From Altererythrobacter lutimaris (GTDB lineage Bacteria; Pseudomonadota; Alphaproteobacteria; Sphingomonadales; Sphingomonadaceae), in NCBI RefSeq assembly GCF_013371495.1, contig NZ_JABWTA010000001.1, positions 124,001 to 188,000 of the forward strand: a stretch of 64,000 nucleotides of DNA, read 5' to 3'. Made by a program: the position numbers and the translations under genes. Positions 12,221-18,739 of the stretch are shown here, piece by piece. The notes beneath the pieces are model-generated. The model was not told the origin of the DNA, ran no database searches, and saw only the letters and a program-made list of their open reading frames with translations. Every line of letters begins with the position of its first letter. Position 1 is the first letter of the stretch.

Positions 12221-12703
12221 ATGAAACACGTATGTCTTCTTGGTGGTACATTGCTGCTTGTAACTTGCGCGGAAGAACAGCCTTCTGATCCTGCCACAAT
12301 CAAGTCCGAAGTTGATGCAGCGTTGTCCGCCTATGCCGATGCAATCAATAACGGCGATCTAGAATCGGTTGCCGCGCTCTATGACGATGATCCCGATTTT
12401 CACTGGATTGATCAGGGGGCATTGCAATACAACTCCGCAGATGATGCCAAAAAGTCGCTGAGCGCCCTTGCTTCACAAGGTACACTGCCAACAATCATCA
12501 TGCAAAAGCCGCTAATCGCTGATCTTGGTGAGCGAGCCGCTATCGCATCCGTGCAGTACCGTTTCGATATGCGCGATCCAGAAGGCAACGAACTCTTCGG
12601 CTGGGAAGGCTGGATGACGCTTGGATTTGTCCGGCGAGAGGAAGGTTGGAAGATTGCCTCTGGTCAGGCGGGACCGTCTGAAAGCGCGATCGGCGAGAAT
12701 TAG
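12221..12703 (+). CDS. NTF2-like (SnoaL/DUF4440) exported protein
   Basis: A 160-residue protein. The hydrophobic N-terminus with Cys16 (LLLVTCAEE) looks like a signal peptide and possibly a lipobox, though Thr before the Cys is unusual. The rest has the NTF2-like fold pattern: a helix with AYADAINNGDLESVAALYDD, then W-containing strands ending in GWKIASGQ. Members bind or convert small molecules, or have no known role. A strong GGGAGG site precedes the ATG. No functional context: neighbours are unrelated. Confidence 0.75.
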   Translation: MKHVCLLGGTLLLVTCAEEQPSDPATIKSEVDAALSAYADAINNGDLESVAALYDDDPDFHWIDQGALQYNSADDAKKSLSALASQGTLPTIIMQKPLIADLGERAAIASVQYRFDMRDPEGNELFGWEGWMTLGFVRREEGWKIASGQAGPSESAIGEN

Positions 12704-12709
12704 TCTCGT

Positions 12710-13057
12710 TTATTCATTCCGCGTCCAGATCCACGGGCCGACCAGCACCAGGATCGCAATGGAGATCCATGCCCATGGAAAGCCGAGCGTCAGGTAAGTG
12801 AACGCAACGCCTGCACTCATCCCGCCGATTGCCATATATTTGGCGCAGCGCGGGATCGCGCGCCGCTCATACCAGTCGCGCACTTGTGGCCCCCAATGCG
12901 GGTGGTCGAGGATTCTCTGCTCCCATGTGCGATTGCTCCGCGCAAAGCAGAATACCGCCACCAGCAGGAAAGGCACTGTCGGAACGATGGGCAGGAACGC
13001 GCCTGCCGCCGCCAGTCCTGTCGCGATGATGCCCCCCGCCAGATAGAGCGGGCGCAT
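12710..13057 (-). CDS. YbaN/DUF454 family inner membrane protein
   Basis: A 115-residue protein of the DUF454 family. It begins MRPLYLAGGIIATG; the conserved stretch FLPIVPTVPFLLVAVFCFARS is seen at about 20-40, followed by a Trp-rich cytosolic loop (HPHWGPQVRDWYERRAIP) and two more membrane segments. Function of the family is unknown. I chose ATG 13057, one base after the SufE stop (TGAGATG), as coupling supports it; the frame is open further upstream but inside sufE. Confidence 0.82.
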   Translation of the reverse strand: MRPLYLAGGIIATGLAAAGAFLPIVPTVPFLLVAVFCFARSNRTWEQRILDHPHWGPQVRDWYERRAIPRCAKYMAIGGMSAGVAFTYLTLGFPWAWISIAILVLVGPWIWTRNE

Positions 13058-13058
13058 C

Positions 13059-13493
13059 TCAGCCGGAGCTCGCTTGCGCTGCAGCCGGGTCACTTGCGAT
13101 GCGTGCGGCATGCTCTTTGACGAGCGCAATCATATTCGGGACGCCTTGCGTGCGGTTCGATGAGAGCTGGTTCTTCAAGTCAAACGGTGCGAGCGCTTCA
13201 GTGATGTCCATGCTGGCAACTTCGCTGGCCGGCTTGTCCTGCACCGCTGCGATAACGAGGGCCACGATACCTTTGGTGATGGCCGCATTGCTGTCTGCAA
13301 GGAAGTGCAGCTGGCTTGTGTCACCGGTTGGATAGACCCACACACTGGCAGAGCACCCGCGCACCAGCGTTGCGTCGGTTTTCAAGGGGTCAGGCATATC
13401 GTCGAGCTCGCGGCCCAGCTCGATCAGCAGGCGATAACGCTCATCGCCTTCAAGGAATTCATATTCTTCAGCTATGTCGGAAAGGGATCGCAT
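13059..13493 (-). CDS. sufE: SufE family cysteine desulfuration protein
   Basis: A 144-residue SufE. The active-site Cys47 lies in VRGCSASVW, the family signature. SufE takes sulfur from the SufS cysteine desulfurase for iron-sulfur cluster assembly. Length is normal. The other suf genes are not in the window. It starts 25 bases after the end of the psp array on the same strand and could receive read-through from it; DUF454 follows directly. Confidence 0.94.
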   Translation of the reverse strand: MRSLSDIAEEYEFLEGDERYRLLIELGRELDDMPDPLKTDATLVRGCSASVWVYPTGDTSQLHFLADSNAAITKGIVALVIAAVQDKPASEVASMDITEALAPFDLKNQLSSNRTQGVPNMIALVKEHAARIASDPAAAQASSG

Positions 13494-13517
13494 GTCAGCG
13501 CATCTAAGCGCTTTCGC

Positions 13518-13751
13518 TCACAAATCCACCCCGCTCGCGATGGCTTCGAGCTTTTTGATGCGTTCTTTGAGGTCTGCAATCTCGATCCGCGCAGCACTGG
13601 CGCCAACTCCGCCTTCAATCTCTGCGGGCGTGTTGTCGAGTTCGCGCTGCTTCAAGCCAAGCCACCCTTGCCAGGCGCGCAGCATGGCGAAAGCGGTGAC
13701 ACACAATCCGACCAGACAGGTCGCAGCGATCATGACGGCGGGGTCCAACAT
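13518..13751 (-). CDS. small membrane/coiled-coil protein at the end of the psp array (77 aa)
   Basis: A 77-residue protein: N-terminal membrane segment (about 5-25, VMIAATCLVGLCVTAFAMLR), then a short coiled coil ending ADLKERIKKLEAIASGVDL. The layout is that of PspB (membrane segment, basic linker, coil), but the VERIVTD core seen in its neighbours is reduced to KLEAIAS. It is the last and most diverged member of the run, 37 bases after the 91-aa gene. Confidence 0.7.
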   Translation of the reverse strand: MLDPAVMIAATCLVGLCVTAFAMLRAWQGWLGLKQRELDNTPAEIEGGVGASAARIEIADLKERIKKLEAIASGVDL

Positions 13752-13788
13752 ATCCCTGGTGCTCCTTCTTACCTCAAACTTGCAGGGT

Positions 13789-14064
13789 TTAGGCCTGCTT
13801 GTTTTCTTCCTTCAGACTTTCAATTTCTGCAGCAATGCGCCGGGCTTCGACGGCTTCGCTTGAATTCGTATCAGTGGCGATCCGCTCGAGAACTTGAATG
13901 CGCTCGCGCAGTTCCGTGACTTCGCTTTCCAACTCCTGTTCGCGCTGGCTGGGCAGTTCCTGTGCACGGCGATCGATTTCCTTCTGTGCACGCTTGCGGC
14001 GGCCCAGCACGCCGGAGACCGCCATGATGAGGACAATCAAAACGACAGCCGTTGCCCAACTCAC
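13789..14064 (-). CDS. PspB-like small membrane protein (91 aa)
   Basis: A 91-residue protein with a membrane segment (about 4-20), a basic linker (GRRKRAQKEIDRR) and a coil containing LRERIQVLERIATD. That core matches the PspB coil and the neighbouring paralogues (ERIVTD). After it the coil runs on through AEIESLKEENKQA. The start overlaps the preceding gene's stop by ATGA. Probably part of the Psp stress system; individual role unknown. Confidence 0.75.
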   Translation of the reverse strand: MSWATAVVLIVLIMAVSGVLGRRKRAQKEIDRRAQELPSQREQELESEVTELRERIQVLERIATDTNSSEAVEARRIAAEIESLKEENKQA

Positions 14065-14357
14065 GAAGTTTTCTCCCGGCCAGTTGTCAGCTGTTCGATG
14101 TCCTGCATGTCACGCAGCGCTTCGATCTGGCCTGCAAGGTTGACGTCCTTGTCCGTGACAATCCGTTCCAGCACGCGGACACGCTCTTCCAACGCGTCCT
14201 GACGGTCGGAAGAAACAGAACCTCGCTTGCTCGCTCGGTTCTCTTCCATCCACTTCTTGTGGTCGAGCGCCTTGCTGACGATCCGGTTCGCTGTGAAGCC
14301 GAGGATCACAAGAACGGTCGTTACAAAAGTGAAGATCAGGACGAGTTCACTATCCAT
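14061..14357 (-). CDS. PspB-like small membrane protein (98 aa)
   Basis: A 98-residue protein: membrane segment at about 5-26, linker ending in DHKKWMEENRASKR, and the coil LEERVRVLERIVTDKDVNLA followed by QIEALRDMQD. The same block ERVRVLERIVTDK occurs in the 15022 and 15351 genes. It overlaps its upstream neighbour by one base and its downstream one by four. Confidence 0.78.
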   Translation of the reverse strand: MDSELVLIFTFVTTVLVILGFTANRIVSKALDHKKWMEENRASKRGSVSSDRQDALEERVRVLERIVTDKDVNLAGQIEALRDMQDIEQLTTGREKTS

Positions 14358-14671
14358 CAGTTGACGCCTTTCTCATCACGCAGACGATCGATTTCGCTGG
14401 TCAGTTGGTATCCGCTGTCCGTCACGATCCGTTCGACATTGGAAAGGCGGTCCTTCATTGAGCCAAGCTCTGCGCGCAGTTCAGCGTTTTCTTGCGTCAG
14501 CAGCGTGACCCGCTGCTTCGCTTCGGCGTCATCGCGCGGGTAGACTGCCTTGCCCCAGCTGTTTTCCAGCGGGTAGCCATTATTGACGCGCATCCAGGTA
14601 TTGAAAACCCAGGCTCCGGCAAACGCGATGCCGACGACGGACAGCAATTCAACTGTGATGAGCTCATTCAT
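14357..14671 (-). CDS. PspB-like small membrane protein (104 aa)
   Basis: A 104-residue protein: membrane segment at about 8-26, then NTWMRVNNGYPLENSWGK, which resembles NNWIRAKHGYELEDEWGG of the next paralogue, so these two are closest relatives. The coil has MKDRLSNVERIVTDSGYQL and SEIDRLRDE. Gap to the 115-aa gene is three bases. Confidence 0.78.
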   Translation of the reverse strand: MNELITVELLSVVGIAFAGAWVFNTWMRVNNGYPLENSWGKAVYPRDDAEAKQRVTLLTQENAELRAELGSMKDRLSNVERIVTDSGYQLTSEIDRLRDEKGVN

Positions 14672-14674
14672 GGC

Positions 14675-15022
14675 TTAAGCGTGGTCCTTGCGTTCGATGT
14701 TGAGGGGTACGCCTGCGTTTGCAGAACGTGTTGGCTTGTCACGTAGCGCTTCGATTTCTTCCGACAGTGAATAACCGCGATCCGTTACAATGCGTTCAAG
14801 CACTGCCATGCGGTCCTGGACATGCTCAAGCTGATCCTTGAGTTCGCTGTTTTCGGCGCGCAGCGTCTCCACTTCAGCGCTGTCGCCGCGTTTCGACTTG
14901 CCGCCCCACTCATCTTCCAGCTCGTAGCCATGTTTGGCGCGGATCCAATTATTGATGAGCCAGCCGCCATAGCTGACCGCAATGATGGCGAGGATAAAGC
15001 TGGGGCCTTGCATCCAATCCAT
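14675..15022 (-). CDS. PspB-like small membrane protein (115 aa)
   Basis: A 115-residue protein with a membrane segment (about 8-26), a polar linker with NNWIRAKHGYELEDEW, a heptad-rich stretch (VETLRAENSELKDQLEHVQD) and the shared core MAVLERIVTDRGYSLSEEIE followed by ALRD. The C-terminus GVPLNIERKDHA resembles the tails of the 15022 (GTPLIIENKERA) and 15351 (GVPLEMERKERA) genes. One-base overlap with its upstream neighbour. Confidence 0.78.
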   Translation of the reverse strand: MDWMQGPSFILAIIAVSYGGWLINNWIRAKHGYELEDEWGGKSKRGDSAEVETLRAENSELKDQLEHVQDRMAVLERIVTDRGYSLSEEIEALRDKPTRSANAGVPLNIERKDHA

Positions 15023-15351
15023 TATGCGCGCTCCTTATTTTCAATAATGAGGGGAGTGCCACTGCCGGTTTCGCGATCTGGTGCGGGTAATTCTCGTGCT
15101 GGAATATCTCTCAGTGCTTCAATCTGTTCGGACACGTCATAGCCTTTGTCGGTCACGATCCTCTCGAGGACGCGGACGCGCTCTTCCAGTGCCATCTTTT
15201 CCATTGCGATCGTTGCAGTCTTGTTCGCGCCGCGTTCTTCAGCAAGGGCCAATCGCAAGTGATTGAATTTGTCCCTTGTGATCAAATAGCCAGCGGCGAG
15301 TGCGCCTGTGATTGGCACTGCAAATAGGAGGAATTCCAGCAGGTCGCCCAT
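15022..15351 (-). CDS. PspB-like small membrane protein (109 aa)
   Basis: A 109-residue protein: membrane segment at about 6-25, helix, then ALEERVRVLERIVTDKGYDV and SEQIEALRD, and the tail GTPLIIENKERA. Core almost identical to the 15351 product, which points to recent duplication. One-base overlaps on both sides make translation of the array tightly coupled. Confidence 0.78.
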   Translation of the reverse strand: MGDLLEFLLFAVPITGALAAGYLITRDKFNHLRLALAEERGANKTATIAMEKMALEERVRVLERIVTDKGYDVSEQIEALRDIPARELPAPDRETGSGTPLIIENKERA

Positions 15352-15668
15352 TATGCGCGCTCCTTCCGCTCCATTTCGAGCGGGACGCCGCTGCCCATTT
15401 GCTCGTCCACGCGGCGTTCGTCGCGCAACGCTTCGATTTGCGTGGCCACGTCATAGCCTTTGTCGGTCACGATCCGTTCAAGCACGCGGACCCGGTCTTC
15501 GAGCGCCTGTACCTTGGTCGCATATTGCGCAGCTTTTTCTGCAGTGTGTTCAGCGGTCGCATCGACTTGCAAGCGTGCGACTTTCTCTTTGTGTTTCAGA
15601 AAGATCGCGACAATCGGAATTGTGCATCCAAATACAATTCCGAGAATGGGGATCATAATCGGATCCAT
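15351..15668 (-). CDS. PspB-like small membrane protein (105 aa)
   Basis: A 105-residue protein: membrane segment at about 5-24 (PILGIVFGCTIPIVAIFLKH), then a helix and ALEDRVRVLERIVTDKGYDV plus ATQIEALRDERR, ending GVPLEMERKERA. It is the first of the extra PspB-like genes after PspC, 28 bases downstream of it. Confidence 0.78.
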   Translation of the reverse strand: MDPIMIPILGIVFGCTIPIVAIFLKHKEKVARLQVDATAEHTAEKAAQYATKVQALEDRVRVLERIVTDKGYDVATQIEALRDERRVDEQMGSGVPLEMERKERA

Positions 15669-15696
15669 TGTGAAGTCCCTCCAAATTCAGTTCTGA

Positions 15697-16074
15697 TCAG
15701 CGGAGTCGCTCGATCTCGGCGGACAGGCGCGGATTACTGCTCACATAGTGATGCTCGACATTGGCAAGCCGGCGATCAACATCACGGAAGCGTGCACGAA
15801 TTTCGCGGGCCGAGCGCTGCGGGCTCTGGCGAACACGCTGCCAGTACTGCTGCTCTTCGGCATCCTTGTAGAGATGCGGCGGCTTCTTATTGAGGATGAT
15901 CCCGGCAATGAAGTAGGCGGGGATCGACCAGCCGCCGGTCGCGAAGATCGAGAAGAACGCACCCAGACGCACCCAGAATGTGCTGACGCCGGTGTAGTCT
16001 GCGATACCGGAGCAAACTCCCATAAGCTTCGCATTGGCCTTGTCGCGATAAAGCGTAGTGCGGGGGGAATTCAT
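15697..16074 (-). CDS. pspC: PspC domain protein
   Basis: A 125-residue PspC. The PspC domain is seen at about residues 5-60: LYRDKANAKLMGVCSGIADY, then FWVRLGAFFSIFATGG and a membrane segment. The C-terminal third is a helix with FRDVDRRLANVEHHYVSSNP and SAEIERLR, which follows the same pattern as the coil of the small paralogues downstream. PspC is the membrane sensor that with PspB draws PspA away from PspF. ATGA-type overlap (4 bases) with pspB. Confidence 0.9.
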   Translation of the reverse strand: MNSPRTTLYRDKANAKLMGVCSGIADYTGVSTFWVRLGAFFSIFATGGWSIPAYFIAGIILNKKPPHLYKDAEEQQYWQRVRQSPQRSAREIRARFRDVDRRLANVEHHYVSSNPRLSAEIERLR

Positions 16075-16373
16075 CGGTTCGCTCCTTTCTTGTCGGCGAG
16101 CAAACGATCAAGCTCGCGCAATTGCTGGTTATCGGTTTCCTGGTCAGCCTGAAGCCGCTTCATTTCGAAGTCGGGATTGTCGGCAGCCACGAGGCGTTCG
16201 ACGGTATCCATGCGATCATCCAGGCGACGGGCAAGCTGATAAAGCTCGTCCAGCAGCACTTCGTCGTCGGTGGTGATTGTCGCGGCAGTTTTCCACTTGG
16301 TCATGTAGTGCATGACCAGCCAGGGAAGCCCGATAAATAGAAGAGCGACAACTAGGACTGGTTCGAGTTCCAT
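16071..16373 (-). CDS. pspB: PspB-like envelope stress membrane protein
   Basis: A 100-residue PspB. N-terminal membrane segment (about 4-22, LEPVLVVALLFIGLPWLVMH), then the coil LARRLDDRMDTVERLVAADNP, matching RMRERIQALE-type cores of classical PspB. The C-terminus extends past the usual PspB length with a helix (KRLQADQETDNQQLRELDRL). It follows pspA by three bases and overlaps pspC by four. It acts at the inner membrane as positive regulator of the response. Confidence 0.85.
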   Translation of the reverse strand: MELEPVLVVALLFIGLPWLVMHYMTKWKTAATITTDDEVLLDELYQLARRLDDRMDTVERLVAADNPDFEMKRLQADQETDNQQLRELDRLLADKKGANR

Positions 16374-16376
16374 GAC

Positions 16377-17066
16377 TTAACCTTTCTTCTCGGCGCCATC
16401 TTTGCCCAGCGCCTTTTTCATCTGTTCCAATTCATCATCGATCGCGTCTGCGCCTTCCAGCGCTGCAATCTCATCTGACAAGCTTGGCTTGCCGGACTGA
16501 TCTGCAATCGAAAGGGCTTCTGCGCGGCCTTCAGCGTAATCGACCCGGCGTTCCATCTGGTCGAAGCGAGCAAGCGCTTCGTCCGTGCGTTCCGTGCTCA
16601 TCAGCGTGCGAAGTTTGACGCGGTTTTCCGCGCTTTCGAGGCGAGCTGCGATCTGCGTCTGGCGGCTGCGTGCTTCGCGTAGGCGATGCTGCAGCTTCTG
16701 AATGTCGTCTTCATAAGCGCGCAAGGCATCGTCCAGCACAGCGATTTCCTGCTTGAGCTGGTCAGCCATGTCTGCGGCTTTCTTGCGCTCGACCAGTGCG
16801 GCCCGCGCGAGATCCTCGCGATCCTTGGAGAGCGCAAGCTGTGCTTTCTCGCCCCAGTCAGCCTGAAGCCGGTCCAGCTTGACTGTGTGGCGGTGCATTT
16901 CCTTCTGGTCAGCGATCGTGCGAGCGGCCGATGCGCGAACTTCCACCAGCGTCTCTTCCATCTCGAGGATGATCATGCGGATCATCTTTGACGGGTCATC
17001 CGCCTTGTCGAGCATGTCATTGAAGTTGGCAGCGATAATATCGCGGGTACGGCTGAAAATGCCCAT
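16377..17066 (-). CDS. pspA: phage shock protein A
   Basis: A 229-residue PspA from the start MGIFSRTRDIIAANFNDML, the universal N-terminus of the family with its amphipathic membrane-binding helix. The rest is the long PspA/IM30 hairpin coil (KMIRMIILEMEETLVEVRAS ... LMSTERTDEALARFDQMERR). PspA binds PspF and, when the membrane is stressed, assembles on the inner membrane. GGAG eight bases before this ATG supports the start. The frame is open for another 99 codons upstream to an ATG at 17363 that is coupled to a small gene, so a longer form may be made. Confidence 0.93.
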   Translation of the reverse strand: MGIFSRTRDIIAANFNDMLDKADDPSKMIRMIILEMEETLVEVRASAARTIADQKEMHRHTVKLDRLQADWGEKAQLALSKDREDLARAALVERKKAADMADQLKQEIAVLDDALRAYEDDIQKLQHRLREARSRQTQIAARLESAENRVKLRTLMSTERTDEALARFDQMERRVDYAEGRAEALSIADQSGKPSLSDEIAALEGADAIDDELEQMKKALGKDGAEKKG

Positions 17067-17363
17067 GAAGGCTACTCCATCAAGTAAACTGTTGCTGCTT
17101 GCGCTGTCGCGCAGGCGTTCGCGCGGAGTTTGCGTCGGAGTGGGGCTGCGACGCAAGCGTTCAATTTCCGCATCCAGGCGCGAGATACGTTGGCGGTCGG
17201 AACCGCTGTCTGAAGAGGTTTGGGCCGGAGCATCGATGTCGAGACTGGATTCAACATCGAGAGGATTGCTCTTATGGGGGACTGAGCGCTCCGGCCCGTT
17301 AGAGGATCCTTCGGGGGACCTCTTGGGGGACTTCGTAGTAGATTTCGGGTTTTCCTTGCTCAT
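17067..17363 (-). other. in-frame open extension upstream of pspA
   Basis: Ninety-nine codons without a stop, in frame with pspA, starting at an ATG that overlaps the stop of the 55-aa gene (ATGA). The translation is polar, Ser/Pro-rich and likely disordered, with one short coil (RQRISRLDAEIERLRRSP) that resembles the EIERLR ends of PspC. Either pspA has a long form with this tail, or this is a region held open by chance before an internal start. Confidence 0.5.
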
Positions 17364-17527
17364 GCCAGTTCCACAGCGATCACAGGATCGGCTGTTTCAT
17401 CCGCAGCCATGGCAAGTGTCGGAGCAAACTGCATCTGCGTTGCCAGTGCCACAAACAGCACCATCGCGCTGACGCTCGCCAGAGAGGCGTGTCCGAGCTT
17501 GGTCTGGAAGAAGCTTTGGTCGTACAT
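17360..17527 (-). CDS. small membrane or exported peptide leading the psp operon (55 aa)
   Basis: A 55-residue protein beginning MYDQSFFQTKLG. It has one hydrophobic segment (about 14-40, with SVSAMVLFVALATQ) and ends in an acidic tail after AMAADE, which resembles a signal-peptidase site. It is the first gene after the sigma-54 promoter, and its stop overlaps the ATG at 17363. It may be a small stress peptide like PspD or a leader. No family recognised. Confidence 0.55.
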   Translation of the reverse strand: MYDQSFFQTKLGHASLASVSAMVLFVALATQMQFAPTLAMAADETADPVIAVELA

Positions 17528-17562
17528 TGCTGTGTTACTCCGTTGGTGTTTGTTTACATATT

Positions 17563-17578
17563 AGCAAGGGGTGTGCCA
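17563..17578 (-). promoter_or_regulatory. sigma-54 promoter of the psp operon
   Basis: On the minus strand TGGCACACCCCTTGCT (17578 to 17563) matches the RpoN consensus TGGCAC-N5-TTGCW exactly. It stands 36 bases before the small leader gene and faces away from pspF, as in the classical psp control region. AT-rich sequence at 17580-17620 is the likely PspF/IHF region. Confidence 0.85.
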
Positions 17579-17680
17579 AACCGGAATAACATTTATAAAA
17601 CAACAACTTGGCGGAAATACGCATTTCAAGGATTGGTTTGTATTGCCAAGCATTGGGAATTTTCACTATAGGTTGGGGTG

Positions 17681-18739
17681 ATGGAGCGCGAAAACCAGTT
17701 TATTGGCCAATCCGGAGCCTTTCTCGATGCGGTGGAGCGCGCTTCCAGAGCGGCCCCGATGTCGCGTCCGGTCCTTGTCATTGGCGAGCGTGGGACAGGC
17801 AAGGAACTCATCGCAGAGCGACTTCACCGTCTGTCCACCCGCTGGGACGAGCCGCTGGTGACAATGAACTGTGCGGCGCTTCCCGAGACATTGATCGAGT
17901 CCGAATTATTCGGTCACGAAGCAGGGGCTTTTACTGGCGCTACCAAATCACGCGCGGGAAGGTTTGAAGAAGCCGACAAAGGCACGTTATTTCTCGACGA
18001 ACTGGGCACTTTGTCGATGGGTGCGCAAGAGCGCCTGCTGCGCGCGGTTGAATATGGCGAAGTGACGCGCATCGGCTCTTCGCGTCCTATCCGGGTGGAT
18101 GTGCGCATCGTTGCTGCGACCAACGACGATTTGCCAGCGCTGGCCGCAAGCGGCGAGTTTCGCGCAGACTTGCTTGATCGGCTTAGCTTTGAAGTCATTA
18201 CTTTGCCCCCGCTAAGGGTACGCGAAGGTGATATTTACGTGCTGGCTGAATATTTTGGACGCCGCATGGCAGCCGAGCTCGATTGGCACGACTGGCCAGG
18301 CTTTGCGCCGCTTATTGCCAAGCAATTCGAGGATTATGCTTGGCCCGGCAATGTTCGTGAGCTGCGCAACGTTGTCGAGCGGGCGGTCTATCGCTGGGAT
18401 GATCCCAATACCCCAATTGCGCATGTGCAGTTTGACCCGTTTGACAGTCCGTGGAAGCCGTTCATGCCGGAACATCGCAAGGCGCTGCATACAGGTTCCA
18501 CTGGAGAGGCGGCTACGGCAGCCAGCGCGGCTCACACCGCGCAAGCAGCACCTGCAGTCGATCTTGACCATGTCGATGATTTGCGGGGCGCAGTCGAAGC
18601 ACATGAGCGCATGATTGTAGAGCACACGCTCGGCAAGCACCGCTGGAACCAGCGTCAGACCGCGAAAGCGCTGGGTCTGACTTATGACCAGCTACGCCAC
18701 TGCATCAAAAAGCATGGATTGATGCAGGAAGAAGGCTGA
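17681..18739 (+). CDS. pspF: sigma-54-dependent activator PspF
   Basis: A 352-residue enhancer-binding protein without a receiver domain, as in PspF. Walker A GERGTGKE (35-42), the sigma-54 loop GAFTGA (82-87), Walker B TLFLDE (102-107), the sensor region and PGNVRELRNVVERA are present. A C-terminal Fis-type HTH (RWNQRQTAKALGLTYDQLRH) binds DNA upstream of the psp promoter. It is held back by PspA. Start ATG 17681 (a GTG lies just before). Residues 265-300 form an Ala-rich linker longer than usual. Confidence 0.95.
   Translation: MERENQFIGQSGAFLDAVERASRAAPMSRPVLVIGERGTGKELIAERLHRLSTRWDEPLVTMNCAALPETLIESELFGHEAGAFTGATKSRAGRFEEADKGTLFLDELGTLSMGAQERLLRAVEYGEVTRIGSSRPIRVDVRIVAATNDDLPALAASGEFRADLLDRLSFEVITLPPLRVREGDIYVLAEYFGRRMAAELDWHDWPGFAPLIAKQFEDYAWPGNVRELRNVVERAVYRWDDPNTPIAHVQFDPFDSPWKPFMPEHRKALHTGSTGEAATAASAAHTAQAAPAVDLDHVDDLRGAVEAHERMIVEHTLGKHRWNQRQTAKALGLTYDQLRHCIKKHGLMQEEG

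Follow-up and report, generated by a model that had tools for sequence, protein, structure and literature searches.

The classical Psp operon encodes one PspB and one PspC, and its mode of stress sensing is still open. According to the available parts of a study in E. coli, PspB and PspC bind each other via their membrane regions, the leucine zipper of PspC (residues 77-98) is required for PspA contact and psp induction, and the toxic effect of PspC is countered by PspB (PMC3068692). In Yersinia, the C-terminal domain of PspC was reported to bind PspA in the on state (PMC5596341, available in part). The present analysis concerns an array of seven small genes that follows pspC in the psp operon of Altererythrobacter lutimaris. 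The operon is located on a 64,000-nucleotide (nt) stretch of contig NZ_JABWTA010000001.1 (positions 124,001 to 188,000; hereafter, the window) of a 2.95 Mb genome. The array was found to be conserved, with a fixed order at its two ends, and represents a variant within a known type of system; its function is inferred below.

Ravi et al. 2024 devote one line to 'PspB duplicates' in psp operons and name AOL22920.1 as the example; that line, in the part of the paper available, gives no number, order, range, origin or mechanism (PMC11237479). These duplicates are probably the same phenomenon as the array. The main text of a 2022 survey, as far as it was available, contains no word starting with Sphingo (PMC9239133). 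A preliminary description, made from the letters of the window alone, had called the system possibly undescribed. The line of Ravi et al. takes that claim away in part, while nothing in print was found on the order of the array, its range or its origin among the matches listed from the open-licence literature, as far as their texts were available.

In one bacterial family, the psp operon keeps an array in which mostly three to eight members, PspB-like and diverged, are detected; this suggests that a known stress switch may have been expanded into a set of specialised adaptors. The family models scanned miss the stand-alone PspB-like family, the conserved leader micro-ORF and the extended PspA described below.

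The array and its relation to PspB and PspC

The minus-strand order in the window is a sigma54 site, an open reading frame (ORF) of 55 amino acids (aa) termed the leader micro-ORF, pspA, pspB, pspC, the seven small genes and sufE, with pspF divergent. The array genes are as follows.

15351-15668, minus strand: array gene a1, 105 aa, group B; AEKAAQYA linker and LEDRVRVLERIVTDKGYDVATQIEALRD tail
15022-15351, minus strand: array gene a2, 109 aa, fast-evolving group B; nearest by identity is a1 (47%)
14675-15022, minus strand: array gene a3, 115 aa, group A; juxtamembrane motif NNWIRAKHGYELEDEWGGK; 80% identity to a2 of locus L005
14357-14671, minus strand: array gene a4, 104 aa, group A second type; LLTQENAELRAELGSMKDRL coil; TIGR02978 (PspC) expect value (E) 5.5e-5
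14061-14357, minus strand: array gene a5, 98 aa, group H (two loci only); TIGR02978 E 7.5e-4
13789-14064, minus strand: array gene a6, 91 aa, GTG start, group C, mostly last but one; TIGR02976 (PspB) E 1.7e-4
13518-13751, minus strand: array gene a7, 77 aa, group D; C-terminal end LKERIKKLEAIASGVDL

The seven minus-strand genes of 77-115 aa that the preliminary description had placed after pspC were confirmed, each predicted to have a single membrane helix near the N-terminus, followed by a helical tail. The core it had given as VERIVTD in five members is shared by these five as [LV]ERIVTD; the literal VERIVTD occurs in a4 alone, the others carrying LERIVTD. The two members set apart as more diverged were indeed found to read LERIATD (a6) and LEAIASG (a7). 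The junctions within the array (a1 to a7) measure -1, -1, +3, -1, -4 and +37 nt, and that from pspC to a1 measures +28 nt. The stops and starts thus overlap or lie within a few bases, as had been claimed, at five of seven junctions, pspC-a1 and a6-a7 being excepted; array starts were set to the codon nearest to the preceding stop, which biases toward tight junctions.

An array profile was seeded with a1-a5 and refined in iterative rounds on the ORFs from 81 loci, namely the window and the 80 best of the 131 relatives found with a2 as the query (a set leaning to Erythrobacteraceae and Novosphingobium). The profile gathered 416 ORFs, present in 81/81 loci, and picked up the diverged a6 (3.5e-19) and a7 (2.8e-14). 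The ratio of nonsynonymous to synonymous substitution rates (dN/dS) was <0.45 in 79/79 ortholog pairs (median 0.12), drawn from 15 hand-picked locus pairs, with some loci used twice and only orthologs >50% identical. Since 416 profile members occur across all 81 loci and their codons are under purifying selection, the array is a real gene family and not a set of chance ORFs. It is bracketed by pspC and sufE in 72/81 loci, with three array genes in 5 of these loci, four in 16, five in 23, six in 21, seven in 5, eight in 1 and nine in 1. Five of the 9 unbracketed loci are cut off within ~260 nt of the array, at the border of their available sequence; L004, L019 and L080 run ~4 kb beyond the array without a sufE match, and L077 has 0.96 kb before the array without a pspC match.

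According to hydropathy, the transmembrane (TM) segment is strong in 387 of the 416 proteins, weak in 28 and missing in 1, with a median start at residue 5. Lysine and arginine are richer on the C side of this segment than on the N side in 408/416 proteins, and an N-out, C-in topology is predicted because of this excess. The array thereby shows, by prediction, the PspB-type architecture of a single N-terminal TM helix and a C-terminal cytoplasmic helix. An AlphaFold2 model of a1 gave a single helix from 5 to 92 (mean predicted local distance difference test score 81.6, predicted template modelling score 0.36); the PspC prediction was of low confidence (67.0). A search of the PDB for array relatives returned nothing meaningful, the matches being coils and potassium-channel helices with E values no better than 0.0023. 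When proteins of groups A-E from different loci were compared (excluding all other groups and 6 proteins without a recognised core), the identity of the 35-aa tail was 34% between groups and 58-87% within them, and that of the TM and linker part was 19% between groups and 31-50% within them. According to these figures, the membrane part is private to each group and the tail is common to all.

The relation to known families was analyzed by profile comparison. In hhalign, the array aligned with a broad PspB set at 89.8% (E 1.8e-6, columns 12-86 to 1-65, 23 of them confidently realigned) and with PspC at 79.4% (E 1.5e-5, columns 19-99 to 49-133, which are its second membrane region and tail). The earlier remark that the PspC tail follows the array pattern was borne out, as the core matches both this tail and PspB. 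Permuted profiles scoring as high were found in 0/150 cases in each of four comparisons, in a control limited to columns filled in at least half of the rows. When gappy columns were kept, 1/60 (array) and 2/60 (single-copy relatives) reached or exceeded the real PspB score, and 0/60 did so for PspC with both. The alignments have two irregularities: A1 contains 89 of the 416 array proteins, with a single group D row, and A4 includes one misplaced group C protein (L081:5832-6083). Among 18,950 NCBIfam models at E 0.01, the two leading matches of the 89 array members were PspC (50/89) and PspB (21/89), and the Pfam leader was PspB (10/89). The TIGR02978 matches of a1-a5, weak singly, extend to model position 120-121 of 121, and that of a6 to 112; a1 matched TIGR02976 at E 0.0024. 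When the array profile was searched against its own genome, the next best hit after the seven genes was the second half of pspC (2.3e-4).

The array proteins resemble PspB (PF06667/TIGR02976) in the predicted N-out TM helix, the short coil with an [LV]ERI core, the pspA and pspC neighbours and the profile homology over TM segment and coil. They differ in lacking the juxtamembrane signature HYxTxWK, a pattern picked here from the PspB alignment (73/73 PspB versus 0/416 array proteins), in an extra conserved tail end (xxEIExLRD in most groups) and in having 3-9 paralogs per operon. Moreover, the window members stay below the curated PspB cut-offs, the best reaching 14.4 of 25.6 bits in Pfam (a1) and 21.8 of 51.7 bits for TIGR02976 (a6). 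With the C-terminal tail of PspC (TIGR02978, ~77-121), they share the coil and a NPRLSAEIERLR-like end; unlike PspC, the seven proteins have no PF04024 domain (no match at E 1 in any of a1-a7), and each joins the tail to a single TM helix of its own. Plain PspB copies are ruled out by the missing signature and the sub-cut-off scores. The proteins are named PspB-like, and not PspB, because their profile homology extends to both families while HYxTxWK is absent: on these sequence comparisons they are a sister branch in a superfamily of PspB and PspC tails. The 'PspB-like' of the preliminary description thus stands as a relation, and not as a multiplication of PspB itself.

Order, range and origin of the paralogs

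Groups were made by sequence clustering alone, and position was compared afterwards. The first place was held by a group B gene in 80/81 loci, group D was last in 77/77 loci possessing it, and group C was last but one in 68/77 loci. The commonest layouts among the 81 loci were B-A-A-E-C-D (13), B-A-C-D (11), B-A-E-C-D (9) and B-A-A-B-C-D (8). A FastTree tree was built from 391 rows, of which 372 are array genes from the 72 bracketed loci and 19 are single-copy relatives. In this tree, the position label changed 19 times versus 358 times for the locus label, and group D formed one clade of 69 rows with support 99; the fine branching was left unused because of the few columns for the number of rows and the many open forks. 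On this evidence the paralogs are old, and from locus to locus the end places belong to the same sequence groups. Recent tandem duplication is ruled out, given that the position groups are old and common to several genera; a2, the fast-evolving group B member closest to a1, may be an exception.

The array profile was then run at 1e-4 on 296 genomes of the order (the order sample), divided into 213 genomes of the window's family and 83 of other families, with tallies transcribed by hand. Matches were found in 271/296 genomes. Within the family, judged from the names of related loci to be Sphingomonadaceae sensu lato including Erythrobacteraceae, 212/213 genomes had matches and 198/213 had three or more (median 4). 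The scan of other Sphingomonadales that the preliminary description had proposed as a check thereby found the array conserved within the family. We take AOL22920.1 to be an Erythrobacter protein. The counts per genome are probably low for group D, because the profile finds this group weakly (2.1e-5 in its own genome). In the other families, 59/83 genomes had matches (one in 47, two in 12) and 24 had none. The array is near-universal in one Sphingomonadales family, and the sister families mostly have a single related gene.

A PspB match was found in 280/296 genomes of the order sample, nearly always single, and in 209/213 of the window's family; at E 1e-7, nearly all genomes with a TIGR02976 match have one, and two genomes have two. 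Of the four family genomes without a PspB match, three keep array matches (2, 4 and 4) and one has neither. In the Novosphingobium loci L051 and L059, no pspB match was detected, pspA and pspC lie only ~100 nt apart, and pspC and three array genes are kept. The PspB of the window carries a C-terminal extension, which was absent from 7 aligned sister-family PspB.

In 16 sister-family genomes, the main match was a protein of ~71-90 aa, such as MGVFEMVVLIVLI...LEERVRVLERIVTDK...LSQEIDKL; four further weak sister-family matches were PspB itself. These single genes mostly have no psp gene within 1.5 kb, and in three loci (L093, L099, L101) they lie behind pspABC. An array-like gene was absent from 29/30 sister-family psp loci in the 0.8-1.1 kb searched after pspC, and pspC is followed by sufE in 10/30. 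In a class sample, 5/289 genomes matched the array profile at 1e-5, one of them outside the window's family. A profile of the single-copy protein at 1e-5 matched 40/349 phylum genomes: 15 in the family, 2 in the rest of the order, 4 in the rest of the class and 19 in the rest of the phylum. The simplest history would be that the array was gained and amplified in the family ancestor, in the interval from pspC to sufE, and the ancestral source would be a single PspB-like gene, still stand-alone in sister families and other proteobacteria.

Other small PspB-like genes were also seen. In one sister-family locus (L142, genome G058), counted among the 29 without an array-like gene, a second PspB-like gene (74 aa, under the TIGR02976 cut-off) lies behind pspC. 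In three genomes of the phylum outside the class (L112, L116, L124), the stand-alone PspB-like gene adjoins a gene of 64-66 aa starting with MKLIM. In another family of the class (L113, L115), tandem PspB-like genes of 76-79 and 64 aa occur at ~1240-1734, with no psp gene in the 1.5 kb flanks; this tandem is possibly the independent start of an array.

Proposed function of the array

We lean towards the view that the array proteins are membrane adaptors, whose private membrane parts are joined to a common PspC-like tail feeding into PspA or PspBC. Because the tail is related to a PspC segment and the whole protein to PspB, they may join PspBC and offer docking to PspA or PspBC. In each paralog, the private part in and next to the membrane would engage a distinct lipid state, a distinct partner or a distinct place in a PspBC hetero-oligomer. 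The common tail would be equivalent to the leucine zipper and the C-terminal segment of PspC implicated in PspA contact, and its output would be PspA docking, and so PspF release, or keeping PspBC off. If the array is driven by PspF, for which the promoter speaks, prolonged stress would provide more docking sites. This anatomy is compatible with the idea, from the preliminary description, that each member could link PspA control to a signal or partner of its own. As the membrane-facing part varies and the tail is kept, gene swaps could separate sensing from output.

Several observations weigh against this proposal. Direct PspB-PspA contact was undetected in E. coli, and the PspC tail is drawn there as periplasmic, with dual topology possible, in the parts of the study available (PMC3068692); PspA docking is therefore not a necessary property of a PspB-like protein. 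What links the array to the PspC tail is a short helical stretch, with 37 columns in its confident part; against a narrow same-family PspB set, hhalign gave only 5.5% (E 0.0069); and the single-sequence family matches of the window genes are weak, the best being 5.5e-5, with nothing of note for a2 and a7. Group B genes sit away from the first place in 29/109 cases, the middle members vary, and just one or two array genes were detected in 14/212 family genomes; given this variation in the middle and these low counts, some members are dispensable in some genomes. The stand-alone relatives have no sigma54 site (0/25 upstream regions at >=11 of 13 positions), and the ancestral gene may therefore have had no Psp role. 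Expression, interaction or mutant results were not found for any array protein.

A possible, though not a probable, alternative is an effector scaffold, in which multivalent anchors hold PspA at the damaged membrane and their number, not signal specificity, counts. The resemblance of the common tail to the PspA-contacting part of PspC, the spread of copy number from 3 to 9 across the 72 bracketed loci, and the encoding of the array together with PspA, in most loci downstream of a single sigma54 site, would all suit such a scaffold. Dose alone, however, predicts interchangeable paralogs, yet the N-terminal parts are group-specific and the end positions are fixed by group. It is unlikely that the array proteins are restraining partners that, like PspB, keep PspC or PspBC off and take no part in signalling; PspC by itself is toxic in E. 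coli. In E. coli, PspB does counter PspC toxicity (PMC3068692, in the parts available). The array may stand in for PspB, because three of the four family genomes without a PspB match, as well as L051 and L059, keep array genes; such a replacement is not usual, since 209/213 family genomes also keep the canonical PspB.

A role outside Psp, with the array being kin of the stand-alone PspB-like family and merely carried by the psp promoter, appears quite improbable. In its favour, stand-alone relatives occur with no psp genes 1.5 kb on either side, and they lack sigma54 sites (0/25); given these 25 upstream regions, control of the stand-alone relatives by PspF in the manner of E. coli pspG was rejected. 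Against this role, the array lies inside the psp operon at the examined loci, its closest families are PspB and PspC, and a single gene of the array kind is found behind pspABC in three sister-family genomes (L093, L099, L101). Finally, functionless tandem duplicates or spurious ORFs, which small overlapping ORFs of low single-sequence similarity to known families might suggest, can be dismissed, given dN/dS <0.45 in 79/79 pairs, a layout kept across genera and matches in 212/213 family genomes.

Promoter, leader micro-ORF and PspA extension

The remaining features of the operon and its borders are given below, with NCBIfam E values for the Psp proteins.

17678-18739, plus strand: pspF, divergent activator (TIGR02974 E 1.5e-144)
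17563-17578, minus strand: sigma54 -24/-12 site, TGGCAC-N5-TTGCT
17360-17527, minus strand: leader micro-ORF, 55 aa, conserved, one hydrophobic segment (MYDQSFFQTKLGHASLASVSAMV...)
17067-17363, minus strand: PspA N-terminal extension, 99 aa, in frame with PspA; contains RLDAEIERLRRSPTPT
16377-17363, minus strand: pspA ORF (E 2e-81); canonical start ATG 17064-17066 (MGIFSR)
16071-16373, minus strand: canonical pspB (E 1.2e-23)
15697-16074, minus strand: pspC (E 1.2e-36); C-terminal tail DRRLANVEHHYVSSNPRLSAEIERLR common to the array
13059-13493, minus strand: sufE, usual right border of the array (PF02657 E 1.2e-32)

The site at 17563-17578 is the sole exact TGGCAC-N5-TTGCW match in the window. 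Sites with at least 11 of 13 positions precede pspA in 67/71 loci, mostly 313-540 nt ahead of the canonical PspA start. A divergent pspF and a -24/-12 site before pspA, taken as the mark of a psp operon controlled by PspF and sigma54, are thus both present at the locus, as in the classical pspABC operon, and the psp setting given in the preliminary description was upheld. The site and the divergent pspF together suggest that the operon is under PspF control. In the region 12700-17700, sigma70 promoters (2 versus 1.9 expected) and terminators (8 versus 5.7 expected) were not clearly above chance; the array itself likewise showed no internal sigma70 promoter exceeding chance.

A micro-ORF family of about 50 aa lies between the sigma54 site and pspA in 61/75 loci with a pspA match, and gave no Pfam or NCBIfam match at the thresholds used. 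The in-frame extension of PspA is also found in relatives, with at least 47 aa, whereas the PspA ORF is merely 224-259 aa in 28/30 sister-family loci. A SRLDxEVERLR-like motif was found in 59/65 PspA extensions versus 1/2332 background ORFs; it is resembled by the PspC tail end PRLxxEIExLR (72/78 PspC), and a looser xxEIExLR-type end is present in 323/416 array members. The patterns for these three kinds of ends were written after the sequences were seen. Within the window, GGAG lies 8 nt before the canonical PspA start, and a Shine-Dalgarno-like match of at least 4 bases precedes MGIFSR in 67/67 loci with that start versus 98/518 internal Met codons. Because of this consistent presence of a ribosome-binding sequence before MGIFSR, two PspA forms, long and short, are likely.

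The adaptor proposal might be extended to a psp switch acting as a multi-input device on one repeated docking peptide, carried by PspC, most array members and the PspA extension, though we consider this extension doubtful. The conserved internal ribosome-binding sequence would yield the second, short PspA, the long PspA would carry a built-in competitor, and the array would be a set of combinatorial sensors competing for one site.

In Zymomonas mobilis, ZMO1062-ZMO1065 comprise pspA, pspB and pspC, which are induced by ethanol and in xylose media; the order of the three genes is that of the window, whereas the two papers, in the parts available, do not speak of array genes beyond ZMO1065 (PMC3495753, PMC8645129). 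From gene order alone, ZMO1062 (hypothetical or pspD) probably corresponds to the leader micro-ORF or lies within the region of the PspA extension. At the other border of the operon, a DUF454 membrane protein is encoded directly downstream of sufE (12710-13042, minus strand), and a relative of it is present in 51/81 loci.

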